Shown one piece after another: positions 232 through 7,392 of a DNA stretch of 36,109 bases. The stretch is taken from positions 1 through 36,109 of the forward strand of contig CALDVW010000111.1 of NCBI GenBank assembly GCA_937924405.1. Reading direction: 5' to 3'. Within the stretch, counting starts at the first letter, position 1. Every line of letters begins with the position of its first letter. The translations under genes and the position numbers were made by a program. Under the pieces are notes generated by a model. That model ran no database searches. It saw only the letters and a list, made by a program, of their open reading frames with translations, and had not been told where the DNA came from. Source of the DNA: an uncultured Lysobacterales bacterium (GTDB lineage: Bacteria; Pseudomonadota; Gammaproteobacteria; Xanthomonadales; SZUA-36).

Positions 232-339
232 AGCCCCAGCCTCAAGCACAAAGGGATGCCCCGCTTTGCCCACCTGACGGAGGATCAACTGTTGGCTATC
301 AGGCACTATATTCGTCAACAGGCGGAGGCTGCCCGCTAG
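232..339 (+). pseudogene. Remnant of a quinohemoprotein/cytochrome c C-terminus
   Basis: An open frame with no credible start ends at a TAG at 337-339. It reads SLKHKGMPRFAHLTEDQLLA followed by IRHYIRQQAEAAR. That is the usual C-terminus of the cytochrome c domain of PQQ-dependent alcohol dehydrogenases: the KGMP(R/S)F stretch carries the Met axial ligand, and the AIRHYI helix follows. The CxxCH heme site and the whole propeller domain are absent upstream, and the frame is closed at 148-150. I read it as a 3' relic of a deleted gene. Its last four bases overlap the 3' end of the opposing FAD oxidoreductase. Confidence 0.55.
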
Positions 340-1880
340 AAGATCCGGTCTCCCGACAGCTTTTGGTAGAGCGTGGCGCCCGTCCAGAAGGTGCCGGCAA
401 ACCCGGCGAATCCGGCCGATGCATTGCAGAAATACAGGCCCTGCAGTGAGCTGTCGGATTTCAGCCTGCCGATACCGATATTCTGTGGGGTCATGTTGGA
501 GCCATAGGAATTGCCCTGTGGAGACCAGCAGAAATGAGCGTTGGTGGTGGGGGTGCCACCGGTCTTGAACACCAGGTGCTGCCTGAATCCGGGTATGTAA
601 TGTTGTTCCACCACGTCGAGGATCGAGTTGATGATTTCCTTTTTCTTCTTCCGGTAGAGCGCTTTGTTCTCCTGCAGCAGGGCGGCGAAATAGTCGTGGT
701 CGGCGACGGTCAGCAATTCCACAATGCTTTGTCCCGCCGGTCGGTCGCTGGTATCACGCGTCATAAATCCCGGCGTGGTTATTGCGAAGCTTGGATTCGA
801 GTAGTCGTGATCGTAGTACATGGCGTTGAACGCGGTGTTCAGATTATCGTGTCCACTGTGAAAAGTATTCCATTTGCCGAACCCATAATCGCCCAGATCA
901 AGCCCCGCTACCGTGCAGTAGATCATGAAGTTGGACGGTGAATAGTCATAATCCAGCCGGCGCCGGATGGACTTCCCGAAACGTCCCGGGCCAATCAGTT
1001 CGGCCGCCCTGCGCGGATCCATGTTGCAGATGACCGTGTCTGCGCGCTGTGTCTCGACCTGGCCGGATACGAGGTTCCTGACTTCCACCCCGGTCACTGC
1101 CTCGGATTCAATCAAGAAGCCGGTGACCTCATTCTGCAACAACATATCGCCACCGTTCACCGTGATGGTTTCAACCAGCGAATCGATAACGTGCTCAAAA
1201 TGCCTTGTCGGGTAATATGCCCCCCGCTGATAACCCGTAAACAGCATGACCCATGCGTAAAAAGACAGTTTTTCCGGAGGTAGCAGAAAATCCGGCCACT
1301 GGGAGGCCAGCAGGCTTTGGGCTGGCAGCGGAAGATCGAACTTGTCGAACACATCCTGCAAAGTGCTATTGTGAAAGGTCAGGGCTTGCAGGGTAGCCAG
1401 GCCATCCCGCGCCAGGCCTGAAAGGGTTGGCCGCGATGCCAGGACATCCAGGCCGCGCGCAACTTTGTTGACGGCGGCAATAAATTTTTCTATCGCCCGT
1501 CGGTGCCCGGGGAATAACTTCACGAGCCGGCGAATAAGTTCTTCGGAATTGGCCGGTATTTTCAGGCTGTAACCGGGTATGACCATGTGGTCAAAGCCAT
1601 CCGGGTCCATCAGTTCGAACGTGACCTTTTCTTCGAGCCGAAGCTTCTTCAGAACCTGGTATACGGTCTGACCTTCACCGCAGTTCCATACGTAATGCAG
1701 CTGGGCATTGAATTTGGCCGACCTTCCCATCTGGAAAGTATGTCCGTAGCCGCCGGCATGTTCATGCGCTTCCAGCACCACGACTTTTTTACCCCTGTTT
1801 GCCATCAGGGCCGCAAAGACCAGGCCGGAGATGCCACTGCCTACAACCAGGAAATCCGTTTTATTGCTGGCTAAGTTCAT
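336..1880 (-). CDS. CrtI/retinol-saturase-like FAD oxidoreductase (phytoene desaturase family)
   Basis: A 514-residue flavoprotein. The N-terminal dinucleotide-binding motif GSGISG at residues 14-19 is followed by the ExxxxxGG signature (LEAHEHAGGYGHTF) typical of the CrtI/CrtISO/RetSat family. The C-terminal FAD-contacting segment GFAGTFWTGATLYQKL matches the family ending. Family members desaturate, saturate or isomerise polyenes such as carotenoids and retinol. No other carotenoid gene is present, so the substrate is unknown, and a lipid or polyene role is inference. Length fits the family (about 500). It is transcribed towards the window start, divergent from the next oxidoreductase with only 81 bases between them, so the two probably share a promoter region. 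It is probably cytoplasmic or membrane-associated; no signal peptide is visible. Confidence 0.8.
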   Translation of the reverse strand: MNLASNKTDFLVVGSGISGLVFAALMANRGKKVVVLEAHEHAGGYGHTFQMGRSAKFNAQLHYVWNCGEGQTVYQVLKKLRLEEKVTFELMDPDGFDHMVIPGYSLKIPANSEELIRRLVKLFPGHRRAIEKFIAAVNKVARGLDVLASRPTLSGLARDGLATLQALTFHNSTLQDVFDKFDLPLPAQSLLASQWPDFLLPPEKLSFYAWVMLFTGYQRGAYYPTRHFEHVIDSLVETITVNGGDMLLQNEVTGFLIESEAVTGVEVRNLVSGQVETQRADTVICNMDPRRAAELIGPGRFGKSIRRRLDYDYSPSNFMIYCTVAGLDLGDYGFGKWNTFHSGHDNLNTAFNAMYYDHDYSNPSFAITTPGFMTRDTSDRPAGQSIVELLTVADHDYFAALLQENKALYRKKKKEIINSILDVVEQHYIPGFRQHLVFKTGGTPTTNAHFCWSPQGNSYGSNMTPQNIGIGRLKSDSSLQGLYFCNASAGFAGFAGTFWTGATLYQKLSGDRIF

Positions 1881-1961: not shown

Positions 1962-3191
1962 ATGCATGTCGTAGTTATCGGCGGTGGCGCGGCCGGAATG
2001 GCCAGCGCCCATTACCTTGCCCAGGCCCATCAGGTGACCGTACTGGAGGCGCAGCCACGGCTCGGGGGAAATATTCGCACGCTGAACCGGAACGTTGAAG
2101 CAAAAAGCCTGCCTGCCGGTATCTTCATCGACAATGGGGTGATCGAATTTCACCGTAAGCACAGTCCCGGTCTGCGTGCCCTCGCCAGGGAGTTAGGACT
2201 GGAACTGGAGAATTTTTCCGGTGGATCGACCGGTATTTACCTGGAAGGTGGCCGCAGCTTTCACATGCCGGGCGCCATAAGAGACCAACAACGAGGTCCG
2301 GTGACCAGGGCCCTGCAACACCTGAAACTGGCCTGGCTGATGCGTCAACTGGTCCCCATCGGCATGCGCATGTACAAGTCGCGATCAAACCAGGCTGATT
2401 CTGTTACCGCTTTCCTCGGTGCAGATACCATGTCCCGCTGGCTGAGGATGCTGCTGATGTATGGTTACTCGATCCCCTACGCGCAGATTGGCGACTTTCC
2501 CGCCAGCCTGGCGATTCCCACGCTGCTGCAGGGTTCCATCGGTACACAGTGGGTCCGGCTTGCAGGCGGGACTTATCGCTACATAGAAGAAATCATCAGG
2601 CGGGCCGGCAACCAACTGACGGTAAAACCCGGGCAGAAGATACTTGTTGTCCAGCGCAACACAACCGGTGTCTGCATTGAATGCTCCGATGGTGTGATCC
2701 GGGCAGATCGGCTGGTATTTGCAACCCCGCCCGATCAAGTGCTGAGATTACTGGAAGACGCCAGTGAAGAGGAGCATATCTGGTTTTCCAACTGGCATGC
2801 CAACTACGCTGAGACCGTCATTCATACGGATGAATCCCTGTATGCTAACTGGAAGATTCACGGCTTTACAGAATTTGATGTATTTGAAAAACAGGGCGGC
2901 AGGGATGCGGGTTACAACGCCTGGCTCAATCGTTTGTGCGGGCTGCCGGACGGTCATGGCACCAACTATTTCCTGGCCTTCAACCTGGAAGACAGAATCG
3001 ATCCGCGAAAGATACTGGACCGGCAACGCCACCACACGCCTCTCTACACAGCTCAGGCCGTGGCGTCTGTCAATGAAATCAAAGCTGCCAATGGCAGAAA
3101 CCATACTTATTATGCGGGCGCATATTTATATAACGGGTTGCATGAAGGAGCTATCCAGTCGGCCCTGGCGATTAAATCCCTGTTCTCCTGA
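1962..3191 (+). CDS. NAD(P)/FAD-binding amine-oxidase-like oxidoreductase
   Basis: A 409-residue protein beginning with a Rossmann nucleotide-binding loop (VVVIGGGAAGMASAHYL, residues 3-19) and an ExxxRLGGN motif (LEAQPRLGGNIRTL). The C-terminal YAGAYLYNGLHEGAIQSAL is the FAD-closing segment seen in protoporphyrinogen-oxidase/amine-oxidase-like flavoproteins and in the COG2907 group, whose version reads roughly GYGFHEDGL. The substrate is unknown. In many bacteria COG2907 proteins sit with cyclopropane-fatty-acid synthases, but no such partner is present here. No good Shine-Dalgarno precedes the ATG. Divergent from the CrtI-like gene. The general class is secure, the reaction is not. Confidence 0.75.
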   Translation: MHVVVIGGGAAGMASAHYLAQAHQVTVLEAQPRLGGNIRTLNRNVEAKSLPAGIFIDNGVIEFHRKHSPGLRALARELGLELENFSGGSTGIYLEGGRSFHMPGAIRDQQRGPVTRALQHLKLAWLMRQLVPIGMRMYKSRSNQADSVTAFLGADTMSRWLRMLLMYGYSIPYAQIGDFPASLAIPTLLQGSIGTQWVRLAGGTYRYIEEIIRRAGNQLTVKPGQKILVVQRNTTGVCIECSDGVIRADRLVFATPPDQVLRLLEDASEEEHIWFSNWHANYAETVIHTDESLYANWKIHGFTEFDVFEKQGGRDAGYNAWLNRLCGLPDGHGTNYFLAFNLEDRIDPRKILDRQRHHTPLYTAQAVASVNEIKAANGRNHTYYAGAYLYNGLHEGAIQSALAIKSLFS

Positions 3192-3215: not shown

Positions 3216-3776
3216 TCATAGCAACTCGTACAGCAATGCCAGGCAGCTTCCCCCCACACCGAACAGCAAGGAAAGGTAGCTCCACCTGAGGTAGCGAAAT
3301 TTTTTCAGCCGTAACACCAGCCCGGCGTAATAGATATCCTGGCTCAGGTGCTGGTAGAGTTCCTGGGGATCTCTCACCACCCGCTCAATTTCACGCTCAA
3401 ACCGATCGATCGGCAAACGCGTGAAGTGCATAAAAAACAAAGGATTGAAATGAGATAATTTTTCGTTGTTCTTGATCGGTTCGGCGCGCACGGCGGCCGA
3501 GGGCATGACGCACAAAATGGCAAAAACCAGGGCCGGGACGCAAGCAGCCGCCACTGCAATGCTGGGGATCAGGAGTGTCCCCTGCTCAATTTTCGCCACG
3601 GCCAGGGTCAACAGGATGGAACTGACCGTGATCATGATATTGGCCTTCGAATCAGCCATGTGACTGAATTCGACCTGGCTCATCTGAATGGTCGCCAGGG
3701 CGATGTCGATGCTTTCATTGAAGTCCTGATCGGCGAAGCCGTTCTGGCCGGTATCATCAAATGGCTCGGAATCCAT
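3216..3776 (-). CDS. DUF5706/PycTM-type membrane protein, orphan Pycsar-effector homologue
   Basis: About 186 residues from the ATG at 3776, which has a strong purine-rich GGAAGAGGG ribosome binding site seven bases upstream. An in-frame ATG at 3812 has none, so the shorter form is preferred. The segment MADSKANIMITVSSILLTLA is the hallmark of the PycTM/DUF5706 family: an acidic-Lys-Ala-Asn turn leading into the first membrane helix. A second helix (IPSIAVAAACVPALVFAILC), a cytoplasmic middle and a third C-terminal helix (YLSLLFGVGGSCLALLYELL) complete the usual topology. In Pycsar antiphage systems such proteins permeabilise the membrane on binding a cyclic pyrimidine nucleotide. No PycC cyclase is adjacent; the neighbours are an oxidoreductase and a catalase-like gene. 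A defence role is therefore not established. Confidence 0.7.
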   Translation of the reverse strand: MDSEPFDDTGQNGFADQDFNESIDIALATIQMSQVEFSHMADSKANIMITVSSILLTLAVAKIEQGTLLIPSIAVAAACVPALVFAILCVMPSAAVRAEPIKNNEKLSHFNPLFFMHFTRLPIDRFEREIERVVRDPQELYQHLSQDIYYAGLVLRLKKFRYLRWSYLSLLFGVGGSCLALLYELL

Positions 3777-3931
3777 AATGCAACCCTCTTCCCTCTCGGC
3801 AATGGTCTGCATTCTAAGCGAAGGCGGATGACATCGTCGACCATGGCGGCCACTTTCTCGTATCGAATAGACGAATAAAACTACTCTTCAAGCCAAGAGT
3901 GGGTTAATTTAATTAGCGCGGAGGTATTCGA

Positions 3932-5044
3932 ATGATTGAACATAAAATCCTGATGGCGATTATTGCTGTGTATCGGCGCATCATCCTGGCATTGGTCACC
4001 TTCTTCGTCACGCTTCTGGTTATCGCCAACAGCCTGTTCGGGCGCGTGCGGATGTCGCATGAAAACGGCATCCTGTTGCGCGGCAAGTTACGCATTGTCG
4101 ATAACCCGGAATTTCCGGAGCATGATTTCTTTGAACCCGGCAAAGAATTTACCTGCCGGCTCAGGCACGCCGCTGCTTCGTACAAGGACGACGCCAAGCT
4201 GGTGGTGCGCAGCGCGTCCATCAAGTTTGCAGATTCGCGCATAAAATCGCCGATGGACATCCTGATGAACTCGGGCGAGGTGCCGCTGTTCTGGGACGCA
4301 CGAACGTTTGTTCAATTCATGAAAGTCTCGTCAAAAGGCAAAGGCAAGCATTACGTACCTTACCTGAGGGCTCACCCGCAAGCAGCTTACGGCGGCGGCG
4401 ACAGTGTCCGGCGCAACCCCGACTCGCCCGACCAAATGGTATACCGGACCAAGAGCGCATTCGGATTCCGTGGCCGCGATGGAATTAATCGCTATGTCCG
4501 CTATCGTCTGGTGCCGGATTCCTTTGACGGCCACGAAAGCGGCGCCCCGGATGACTGGGATCGGAATCACGCCTGGTTGCAAAATCCCTACCGGGATGAA
4601 ACCCGCAACCGCAACTACCTGAAAGACGCCATCATCAAGGACATGGAAGATGGCAAGGTATACCGTTACAAGCTGCAGCTGCAGCTGCGCCTGCCACCAC
4701 CAAATGATGATGTGCAGCCGGAGTGGCTATCCTGCGCCGTCCCCTGGGATGAATCAAAGTTCCCATACCAGGACCTGGCCGAAGTCGAAATCAACGAAGC
4801 ACTTGATTACGAAGAGAGCCAGATGACCTGGTTCGACATGAGCAATCACCCGCCAAGCCTGCCCATACCCAAGGCGCGGTCGATCGATGATCCGCATTCA
4901 CTGAATCACCTTCGATTGGCATCAATCTGGGCGCGCCGTGCGCGCTTGTGGTCTTACCGTCTGTTTGGCATGCCGGCGAAGTTTTCTGACTCCCGGGACG
5001 CCAAGGACTGGGAAGGCGTTCCGCCCCTTCGCAATCCGCCGTAG
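3932..5044 (+). CDS. Catalase-related protein resembling coral allene oxide synthase
   Basis: A 370-residue protein with a ribosome binding site (GGAGG, eight bases before the ATG) and an N-terminal membrane helix (about residues 13-33). The body follows the catalase-related allene oxide synthase domain of the coral AOS-lipoxygenase fusion as I recall it. Shared blocks include VDNPEFPEHDFFEPG, RLRHAAASYKDDA, SIKFADS, the MNSGEVPLFW stretch and SNHPPSLPIPKARS. The expected distal heme pair appears as Ser42-His43, where coral AOS has Thr-His. The proximal RxxxY motif is not where it should be: the aligned segment is Arg328-Leu-Ala-Ser-Ile332, so Ile replaces the heme-ligating Tyr. A second RLWSY motif (Arg338-Tyr342) lies ten residues downstream. 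Family members convert lipoxygenase-made fatty acid hydroperoxides to allene oxides or epoxides. The convergent lipoxygenase 33 bases away supports that pathway. Whether this copy binds heme is open. Confidence 0.8.
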   Translation: MIEHKILMAIIAVYRRIILALVTFFVTLLVIANSLFGRVRMSHENGILLRGKLRIVDNPEFPEHDFFEPGKEFTCRLRHAAASYKDDAKLVVRSASIKFADSRIKSPMDILMNSGEVPLFWDARTFVQFMKVSSKGKGKHYVPYLRAHPQAAYGGGDSVRRNPDSPDQMVYRTKSAFGFRGRDGINRYVRYRLVPDSFDGHESGAPDDWDRNHAWLQNPYRDETRNRNYLKDAIIKDMEDGKVYRYKLQLQLRLPPPNDDVQPEWLSCAVPWDESKFPYQDLAEVEINEALDYEESQMTWFDMSNHPPSLPIPKARSIDDPHSLNHLRLASIWARRARLWSYRLFGMPAKFSDSRDAKDWEGVPPLRNPP

Positions 5045-5077: not shown

Positions 5078-6730
5078 TCAGATCGCTATGGATCTACCGA
5101 TGTTCCAGGGCTGGAGGTACAGATAGGGAACTTCCAGATCCTTGTTCCTCTGCTCAATCTCACGTCCGATGTCGTCCAGCCGCCCGCGGAAGCGGTCAAT
5201 TGCATTACGAGCCGGCATCACACCATTGAAAAAGTCCGGCGGATACATACCCAGCGGAGTCAGCGTTTTCGAACTCAACAAATGAACCAGCGTCAGCTGT
5301 TGGCCAACGGCGTGCGCGCCGGGTAATGCGTAGACCAGGTTAGCCTCATCGCGGGGTGAGTGATCCGTAGGTGGCGGCAAGTACATGGCGCCCGGAGTAT
5401 TCGGAATCCAGCCCAATTGCGCATACTGGCCATTGTTCACCGCGGAATGTTCGACACTGCAGATAAATATCACCTGTGCGACGATTGCATGGAGCGCGTC
5501 GAACGTCTCGATACTTCCGTTTTTTCCAACCGGCAGGCCCTTGACCCGGCCACCCTTCTTGCTGACCAGTTCCCGTCCCCAACTCTGCAGCTCGATGTCC
5601 GATTTCACGGTTTCATCATCAGGATAGTAGACGCGCAGCAGGTCATTCACGTACTGCTTGATCGCGGTGAACAGTTTCAGTGCATCCTCACGATAGTGGT
5701 ATCCCGGCAACACTTCCTCGCTGAGCAGGCCACGATTTTCGAGGTCCGTCACCGGATTGGTGTTGGCAAACGTCCAGCGGTCGTATTCGAGCCCTACCGC
5801 CGTCAGCGACCCTTCAGCACCGATCGCGATGGTTTCATCTATCGGCCCTCCGGGTGCGATCAGGGTTTTACGCGCCTCGTGATTGATTTCCACGGTACCG
5901 GTAAAATGCGGCTTCAGCAGTACGTGCAAGGGGTGCTGAGGCGCAAATGCCCGGCAGGCAGCCACCCAGAAAGTTTCCATCGCGAGGTGTGTACGCGTGA
6001 GGTGGGCAACGACCTCGTGATAAGTGCCATCGGCCGACTGCACGAAAGAACGCGCCATAAGCCAGGTCCACTTTTCATCCTTGGGAGTAAATATGACCGG
6101 GGCTTCGGCAGGCGATTGGCCCAGCTGAATGGCCAGCGGCATCAACTGACCGAGATCGTTCTTCCAAAACAAGGCAATTGGCGCAACGCAAAAACGGCCC
6201 AGCAGGGGCTGCAAACCGTTCAGAATCTCGTAGTCAAGCAGGAACAGGCGCTGTTCAGCGAGCAAATGCTCGAGGTTAAAGCATTCCGGAATAATACCCT
6301 TGACGTCCTCGTCGGTGACCGGAAATTTCTCCGGAATCTCAGTGGCCAGTCTGATCAGGACAGGATTGATTCCGTCCAGCCGTTGCCGGGCAAACTCCTC
6401 GTCCTCCATCCAGCGGCCCGCCACGGCCGGAATTTGTCGCAACGGGTAATAACGCTTGAAACTCGCCACGGTGTCGTTGTGCTTGAACAAGCGAATGATG
6501 CTCGCCAGCGCCAGATCCGCGACACTCTCGACAAAGTCCATGGCCATGTAGGCGCTCTTGGTCTTGGTGAATTCCTCACCGGGCGGGAGTCCTTTACAAA
6601 ATGCCGGCTGACCGGGCGCATGAACCCAGGTGTAGTCCTGCTGCTGCGCGAACAGGTAGCGATCGCGCTCAGCTTTTTCAAACCTGTTTGCTGAATCTGG
6701 CAGGCAAATTCGCATATTCTTATTCTCCAT
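5078..6730 (-). CDS. Bacterial lipoxygenase
   Basis: A 550-residue catalytic-domain-only lipoxygenase, a non-heme iron dioxygenase that inserts O2 into polyunsaturated fatty acids. All five iron-site positions are visible: His243 and His248 (HLTRTH), His428 and Asn432 (EHSAVN) and the C-terminal Ile550 (GRSIAI). The block DRFRGRLDDIGREIEQRNKD followed by LEVPYLYLQPWNIG is close to the coral 8R-lipoxygenase ending. No PLAT beta-barrel domain and no clear signal peptide are present. Start: the ATG at 6730 has no obvious ribosome binding site, while the in-frame ATG at 6715 has GGAG nine bases upstream, so the protein may be five residues shorter. It lies downstream of a small membrane-protein gene on the same strand and converges with the catalase-related gene, its probable hydroperoxide-consuming partner. 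Confidence 0.92.
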   Translation of the reverse strand: MENKNMRICLPDSANRFEKAERDRYLFAQQQDYTWVHAPGQPAFCKGLPPGEEFTKTKSAYMAMDFVESVADLALASIIRLFKHNDTVASFKRYYPLRQIPAVAGRWMEDEEFARQRLDGINPVLIRLATEIPEKFPVTDEDVKGIIPECFNLEHLLAEQRLFLLDYEILNGLQPLLGRFCVAPIALFWKNDLGQLMPLAIQLGQSPAEAPVIFTPKDEKWTWLMARSFVQSADGTYHEVVAHLTRTHLAMETFWVAACRAFAPQHPLHVLLKPHFTGTVEINHEARKTLIAPGGPIDETIAIGAEGSLTAVGLEYDRWTFANTNPVTDLENRGLLSEEVLPGYHYREDALKLFTAIKQYVNDLLRVYYPDDETVKSDIELQSWGRELVSKKGGRVKGLPVGKNGSIETFDALHAIVAQVIFICSVEHSAVNNGQYAQLGWIPNTPGAMYLPPPTDHSPRDEANLVYALPGAHAVGQQLTLVHLLSSKTLTPLGMYPPDFFNGVMPARNAIDRFRGRLDDIGREIEQRNKDLEVPYLYLQPWNIGRSIAI

Positions 6731-6804: not shown

Positions 6805-7209
6805 CTACGGTTTCGGGCCAAAGAAACCGTAGGTCAGGTGTGAACTCATCTGAAAGAACCTTGCGGGAATATAGAACGCATAAACGTACCACTGCCATGC
6901 GCCGGTCACAATTTGATCCCACCAGAAAATCCACCATACGAAGTACATGATTCCAGCCAACTTTGCGAACAGCCGACGGCTGGCAATGTCATTATTTTTG
7001 AGCATCACGTAGTTCGGGATGGCCCATACGCCAGACCACCAGCCGTAGCCCGTCGCCATGAATACCCCGAATAGGGTCAGGTTCTGCGCATCGGGCATGG
7101 TGATCCACAACGGGACCAGGTTGACCCATTGCGCCAGGGCAGCAGAGAAAGCAACCGTGCACTCGGCCACGGTGAGCCATAGGCAAATCTGATAATATCT
7201 GGGTTTCAT
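6805..7209 (-). CDS. Small tryptophan-rich four-helix membrane protein of unknown function
   Basis: About 134 residues from the ATG at 7209, chosen because AGG lies six bases upstream; the in-frame ATG that lies 12 bases further upstream has no ribosome binding site. I do not recognise the family. Four hydrophobic segments are visible (CLWLTVAECTVAFSAAL, LTLFGVFMATGYGWWSGVW, LAGIMYFVWWIFWWDQIV, WQWYVYAFYIPARFF). The protein is unusually rich in Trp, including WW pairs in GWWSGVW and FWWDQ. It ends in SHLTYGFFGPKP. It sits 74 bases upstream of the lipoxygenase on the same strand, so co-transcription is likely. A role in presenting lipid substrate or product is a guess from position only. Confidence 0.6.
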   Translation of the reverse strand: MKPRYYQICLWLTVAECTVAFSAALAQWVNLVPLWITMPDAQNLTLFGVFMATGYGWWSGVWAIPNYVMLKNNDIASRRLFAKLAGIMYFVWWIFWWDQIVTGAWQWYVYAFYIPARFFQMSSHLTYGFFGPKP

Positions 7210-7392
7210 AGGGGACCTCATTTTGTCTGTTTCTTGTTGCGAATCATCACCCCGTCCCAATCAGGGACAACGCCACATTAAAGCAAAAACGCATCCAGTA
7301 TAGCGGAAAGGGCACCGCGTTCGGTATCGGGTCGCACGCAACGGTGGCTATCGCAACAGGGCGTCTGGGCGACCACGCCGCAAGCCGCATAC

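Follow-up and report, generated by a model that had tools for sequence, protein, structure and literature searches.

The closest described relatives of the protein studied here are the allene oxide synthase of the coral Plexaura homomalla (cAOS, PDB 1u5u/3dy5) and the hydroperoxide lyase cHPL. In the coral AOS, the heme is contacted by R64, R102 and R360, with H67, T66 and N137 on the distal side and Y353 on the proximal side (PMC5617202). The window, a DNA stretch of 36,109 nucleotides from an uncultured Lysobacterales bacterium, encodes a protein, AOSx, that shares with cAOS and cHPL the catalase fold, about 35% sequence identity, the heme-contact arginines, the distal His and Asn, and the association with lipoxygenase (LOX). 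It differs from them by the deletion of the residue corresponding to Tyr353, the replacement of the distal Thr by Ser and the presence of a hydrophobic N-terminal helix. Moreover, AOSx is encoded by a separate gene without LOX fusion, and is linked to a giant signalling protein.

Tyr-bearing bacterial relatives (L016, from the plasmid pNGR234a, as well as L039 and L040) are also catalase-related and possess the equivalents of R328, R338, N113 and R78 of AOSx. However, they keep the R-x-x-x-Y motif (RAIVY, RALIY and RALVY), and their neighbors are di-heme cytochrome c peroxidase-like, catalase-like and patatin-like genes. The L016 gene (pNGR234a 411228-412157, Sinorhizobium fredii NGR234) shares part of its sequence, in a different frame, with the catalase gene upstream of it. 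This copy is split across two reading frames and is only partly annotated; a gene for a di-heme cytochrome c peroxidase and one for a patatin-like phospholipase come after it. At another locus, L061 (10042-15231), a protein of 1729 residues combines a catalase-like N-terminus with a patatin-like phospholipase domain. The chanoclavine synthase EasC (PDB 9jdc), a Foldseek match, is likewise a specialised catalase-fold protein, but it is only 14% identical to AOSx and functions in fungal alkaloid synthesis.

Overall structure of AOSx

A phmmer comparison related AOSx to the coral enzyme 1u5u with an E-value of 3.8e-52, and the two sequences are 35% identical in the alignment, while the score of AOSx against the Pfam catalase family PF00199 (11.6 bits) remains below the gathering score of 25. 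The AF2 model, for which eight family members were used as the input, has a mean pLDDT of 76.5 and a pTM of 0.82. Its best solved match is 1u5u (Foldseek E 2.8e-27, TM about 0.8), with a VIA Z score of 36.3 and an rmsd of 2.4 over 329 aligned residues, and the next matches are catalases, with Z scores of about 22-23. The model therefore displays the catalase fold characteristic of the coral-type AOS/HPL. Residues 40-44 have pLDDT values below 50, and for this reason no conclusion is drawn from the modelled distal geometry.

The initial annotation described the protein as membrane-anchored at its N-terminus, and our analysis supports a hydrophobic helix there. Besides the proximal helix (residues 323-345), the model contains an N-terminal helix, and the 19-residue hydropathy of the N-terminus is 2.56, the value for two Tyr-bearing relatives being about 0.5. 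All full-length family members have a hydrophobic N-terminal segment, with Kyte-Doolittle values of 1.3 to 2.6. This helix is likely to be a membrane anchor.

Table 1. Positions of AOSx, its key residues and the neighboring genes in the window
Feature	Position	Strand	Basis or remark
Tyr-less catalase-related protein AOSx, 370 aa	3932..5044	+	phmmer, AF2, Foldseek, VIA
N-terminal hydrophobic helix, residues 17-37, likely membrane anchor	3980..4042	+	hydropathy; AF2 helix 2-36
R40-M41-S42-H43: propionate Arg (coral R64), distal Ser-His (coral T66, H67)	4049..4060	+	alignment; PMC5617202
S42-H43	4055..4060	+	
R78 (coral R102), heme contact	4163..4165	+	invariant in 22/22 full-length members
N113 (coral N137), distal Asn	4268..4270	+	invariant in 23/23
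N325, clade-specific	4904..4906	+	Asn in 23/23; Gly in 4/4 Tyr-bearing relatives
RLASI, residues 328-332	4913..4927	+	
Proximal helix R328 to R338, ligand Tyr deleted	4913..4945	+	HMMER, MAFFT, spacing, structural alignment
RLWSY, residues 338-342	4943..4957	+	
Tyr342, proposed replacement ligand, rejected	4955..4957	+	Tyr in 12/23
Lipoxygenase, 550 aa, convergent neighbor	5078..6730	-	PF00305 E 2.8e-68
Small membrane protein	6805..7260	-	56% identical to L011 9361-9813, also near the L011 AOSx gene
SAM - class III cyclase - AAA_16 ATPase - TPR signalling protein, 1103 aa	7393..10704	-	Pfam

Deletion of the proximal heme ligand

The proximal Tyr had been reported as missing, with Ile332 of the RLASI stretch in its place. 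The loss itself is confirmed: AOSx has no counterpart of coral Tyr353, and the Tyr of the R-x-x-x-Y motif is absent from all 23 members considered (22 full-length sequences and one frameshifted copy). The motif Arg, Arg328, is present in RLASI as described, but in both the HMMER and MAFFT alignments Tyr353 faces a one-residue gap rather than Ile332. The distance between Arg328 and Arg338 is 10 residues, as compared with 11 between R349 and R360 in the coral enzyme and 11 between the same two arginines in the Tyr-bearing bacterial relatives, and therefore one residue has been deleted within the proximal helix. The structural alignment pairs AOSx residue 343 with residue 370 of human catalase, and residue 345 with coral residue 367, an offset that matches R338 and differs from that of R328. 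The aligned ends thus fit the equivalence of Arg338 with coral Arg360 and human Arg365, which again places the deletion inside the helix. On the basis of the alignments, the change is best described as a one-residue deletion, that of the ligand, inside the helix. Across the members, the position of the lost Tyr is occupied by Glu, Ile, Val, Gly, Asp or Ala.

The initial annotation also pointed out that a second motif, RLWSY, lies ten residues after RLASI, which is correct, and considered that the ligand might have shifted to its Tyr342, a proposal to be checked, among other ways, by structure prediction with heme and by an alignment of bacterial homologues at residues 328-342. Neither the structural nor the sequence alignment favors the shift. 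The same fit of the aligned ends places Tyr342 on the same helix as the ligand position but about 11 residues beyond it, too far along to be at the canonical proximal position. In the alignment, the proximal Tyr is lacking clade-wide and residue 342 is variable, with Ala, Leu, Ile, Ser, Thr or Gln in the members without Tyr. Another gained ligand was also rejected, as the clade-specific invariants M41, S42, N325 and Q217 include no plausible proximal iron ligand. The proximal helix of the 23 members contains no conserved His, Cys, Tyr or Lys.

Retention of the other pocket residues

The rest of the heme pocket is conserved. The distal pair Ser42-His43, correctly noted at the outset, is invariant in the 22 full-length sequences, and H43 extends to 23/23. 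The coral heme-contact arginines R64, R102 and R360 correspond to R40, R78 and R338; R338 is invariant in the 22 full-length members, as is Arg328, whereas R40 is replaced by Lys in two of them and kept in the other 20. The distal residues T66, H67 and N137 correspond to S42, H43 and N113, the Thr to Ser replacement being conservative. Among the 22 full sequences, six of these seven positions show no variation, which has a hypergeometric P of 2.5e-5 relative to the invariant share of the core. This value serves as a guide rather than as a strict test, since conservation in the active site is correlated with that in the core. This near-complete retention of the non-Tyr heme contacts argues against a simple loss of the cofactor site.

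It also bears on the possibility that heme has been wholly lost, and that the fold now binds lipids or serves as a scaffold without heme, as a subunit anchoring the lipoxygenase and the signalling protein at the membrane. The missing proximal ligand, the conserved hydrophobic N-terminal helix and the fusion of a lipoxygenase N-terminal piece to the Tyr-less protein at L012 would all suit such a subunit. However, it would have no need of invariant heme-propionate arginines and a distal His, and we consider this explanation unlikely.

Distribution and evolution of the Tyr-less family

For the Tyr-less family, 22 full-length members, including that of the window, were found in Pseudomonadota, Bacteroidota and Planctomycetota. 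A scan of representative genomes found seven relatives: three in Pseudomonadota (66-68% identity), three in Bacteroidota (about 43%) and one in Planctomycetota (39%). Family-alignment searches of related-genome groups (395, 248, 218, 102 and 220 genomes, some counted twice, with cyanobacterial relatives such as those in Acaryochloris outside these groups) added fourteen full-length copies and two fragments. One fragment is the frameshift-broken copy mentioned above; in the other, L041, the Tyr is also missing. No further member occurred among 60 relatives of the window's genome or among about 400 genomes drawn from its phylum, and this rarity suggests horizontal spread. A search of viral contigs gave no family match, and the plasmid search matched only the Tyr-bearing Sinorhizobium relatives.

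In the phylogenetic tree, the Tyr-less sequences lie on one side of a single branch, adjoining the coral AOS, with supports of 98/95 for all columns and 93/94 when the proximal helix is omitted. With the Tyr-bearing pNGR234a type as the outgroup, the loss of the Tyr is derived and happened once. In this sequence-based tree, the Tyr-less clade thus reads as the sister of the coral AOS, and the loss as a single event.

The dN/dS values of about 0.025, 0.10 and 0.17, in pairs with unsaturated dS, indicate purifying selection. Although the window belongs to a draft genome of 129 contigs, an origin of the Tyr loss in a sequencing error or a decaying gene of the metagenome assembly has a negligible probability, as 22 other members from unrelated assemblies show the same lack and dN is well under dS. 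A frameshift or pseudogene was rejected on the same grounds, the loss being clade-wide and the gene being under purifying selection.

Gene neighborhood

In the window, AOSx is followed by the lipoxygenase, the small membrane protein and the SAM-cyclase-AAA-TPR protein. The lipoxygenase retains its five iron ligands in the alignment (His/His/His/Asn/C-terminal Ile), the small membrane protein has no Pfam match, and the cyclase Asp, Walker A and Walker B motifs are present in the signalling protein. Two divergent genes resembling FAD-dependent amine oxidases/phytoene desaturases (336-1880, minus strand, and 1962-3191, plus strand) flank the locus.

A giant ATPase signalling protein is encoded beside or near the AOSx gene at 21 of the 23 loci, in three phyla; at the other two (L080 and L083), contig ends cut the neighborhood. 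The giants, assigned by Pfam for part of the loci and by blastp for the rest, including L078, L079, L081 and L082, are of several types: Ser/Thr kinase-AAA-GAF-cyclase proteins (L009, L010, L012-L014, L052 and L054), a cyclase-AAA-TPR protein (L011), and the kinase-AAA-TPR proteins of Planctomycetota (L015 and L057-L060). One of the latter (L057 10297-14535) has a weak, apparently degenerate cyclase domain at residues 433-547, between the kinase and AAA domains. The Pseudomonadota and Bacteroidota giants share the N-terminal kinase and GAF domains with the HstK-type Ser/Thr kinase-GAF-histidine kinase proteins (cyanobacteria; Mak2/Mak3), and L053, L055 and L056, which end in a histidine kinase, contain the full HstK domain set of Ser/Thr kinase, ATPase, GAF and histidine kinase. 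In contrast to the HstK type, the C-terminus is a class III cyclase at most loci, and the partner in the window, devoid of kinase and GAF domains, falls outside the HstK set.

The Bacteroidota cassette genes are mostly co-directional and operon-like, with some 4-base overlaps (L012 7584-7587 and L054 10296-10299). The number of full-length giants of this type is no more than one or two per genome, which makes a chance adjacency unlikely, although the loci share descent. The annotation's notion of a differently acting partner fits this neighborhood, but it overlooked that the lack of the Tyr is conserved over three phyla and that the gene is part of a cassette.

A lipoxygenase is present at 16 of the 23 loci, in all three phyla, with intact iron ligands in those aligned; that of the planctomycete L082 ends in Val, not Ile. 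Five Planctomycetota loci and one Bacteroidota locus have no full-length lipoxygenase within the stretch read. The Bacteroidota enzymes (L013 5781-7955, L014 5739-7904 and L052-L056) form a divergent group of 720-750 residues that keeps the iron ligands, and the two weakest barely reach the Pfam cut-off. At L012 (7584-9095), a piece resembling the N-termini of the Bacteroidota lipoxygenases is fused directly to the Tyr-less protein, and its neighborhood contains no lipoxygenase catalytic domain.

A PycTM-like protein (3216-3812, minus strand) adjoins the AOSx gene, near the class III cyclase, and is not conserved elsewhere. It raises the idea of a Pycsar-like anti-phage system, in which the cyclase would make a pyrimidine cyclic nucleotide for the PycTM-like protein and the other genes would be accessory. 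PF18967 (PycTM) matches it with an E-value of 3.4e-20, and the PADLOC models for PycTM and PycC both match the locus, the former well and the latter in a generic manner. However, blastp found no PycTM homologue at any related locus, the PycC models match class III cyclases generally, and the window cyclase bears a large ATPase-TPR region, so that we regard such a system as highly improbable.

Discussion

AOSx lost the one residue that defines a catalase-related AOS and is therefore not classed as such. Our preferred interpretation, to which we assign a probability of roughly 45%, is that AOSx is a membrane-tethered, non-canonical, pseudoenzyme-like binding partner or receptor for lipoxygenase products, rather than a classical catalase-related enzyme. 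The clade-wide loss of the Tyr, the kept pocket, the purifying selection, the linkage to the giants, the intact motifs and the different neighbors of the Tyr-bearing relatives are all consistent with this role. Several observations weigh against it. The Pseudomonadota genes are convergent and do not form one operon; the window partner, without kinase and GAF domains, is encoded two genes past the lipoxygenase; and six loci have no full-length lipoxygenase in the stretch read. In addition, the linkage comes entirely from one clade, and the loci are thus not independent tests.

An enzyme would likewise keep the distal His and Asn, and the main rival, nearly as likely as the receptor or pseudoenzyme but doubtful in its own right, is an active heme enzyme with altered ligation that acts on the lipoxygenase hydroperoxides. 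The three arginines would hold the heme, with water, hydroxide or no ligand on the proximal face, or with His43 as the ligand and the substrate on the emptied face, and the chemistry would be altered to that of an isomerase, a lyase or an epoxyalcohol synthase. The retained distal Ser/His/Asn and propionate arginines, the intact ligands of the neighboring lipoxygenase and the use of a LOX product by the coral sister enzyme (PMC5617202) support this possibility. On the other hand, no member retains the iron-tuning residue, the proximal helix has not acquired a conserved His, Cys, Tyr or Lys in exchange, and the linkage to signalling genes is stronger than that to lipoxygenase.

For the receptor, we tentatively envisage a lipid-peroxide signalling pathway, in which the lipoxygenase makes the signal and the ligand-stripped catalase fold is the membrane receptor that drives the giant kinase/ATPase/cyclase. 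The Tyr-less clade would have split off from the coral-type allene oxide synthase lineage. At the membrane, the neighboring lipoxygenase would supply fatty-acid hydroperoxides, and the Tyr-less protein may bind the hydroperoxide, or an oxylipin derived from it, in the old distal pocket formed by Ser42, His43 and Asn113. This pocket would contain heme if Arg40, Arg78 and Arg338 still hold it, but without tyrosinate chemistry. Ligand binding would be relayed to the giant ATPase protein of the same locus, and its cyclase, histidine-kinase or Ser/Thr-kinase domains would provide the output, in the form of a cyclic nucleotide or of phosphorylation. By analogy, the giants with a kinase-GAF-histidine kinase layout recall the fission-yeast Mak2/Mak3, which are reported to act in oxidative-stress signalling (PMC5383687).

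Our search of the open-licence literature found no description of a Tyr-less catalase-related protein or of this cassette, and within that limited literature the clade and its cassette represent a new variant on the AOS fold. The proximal Tyr is a hallmark of the catalases and of their oxylipin-making relatives. A clade that is deprived of that Tyr alone, keeps the rest of the pocket and is linked to signalling genes is therefore a natural experiment on the capacity of the fold. It also suggests that some bacteria may have a dedicated receptor for lipoxygenase products, which would make the role of bacterial lipoxygenases directly testable.
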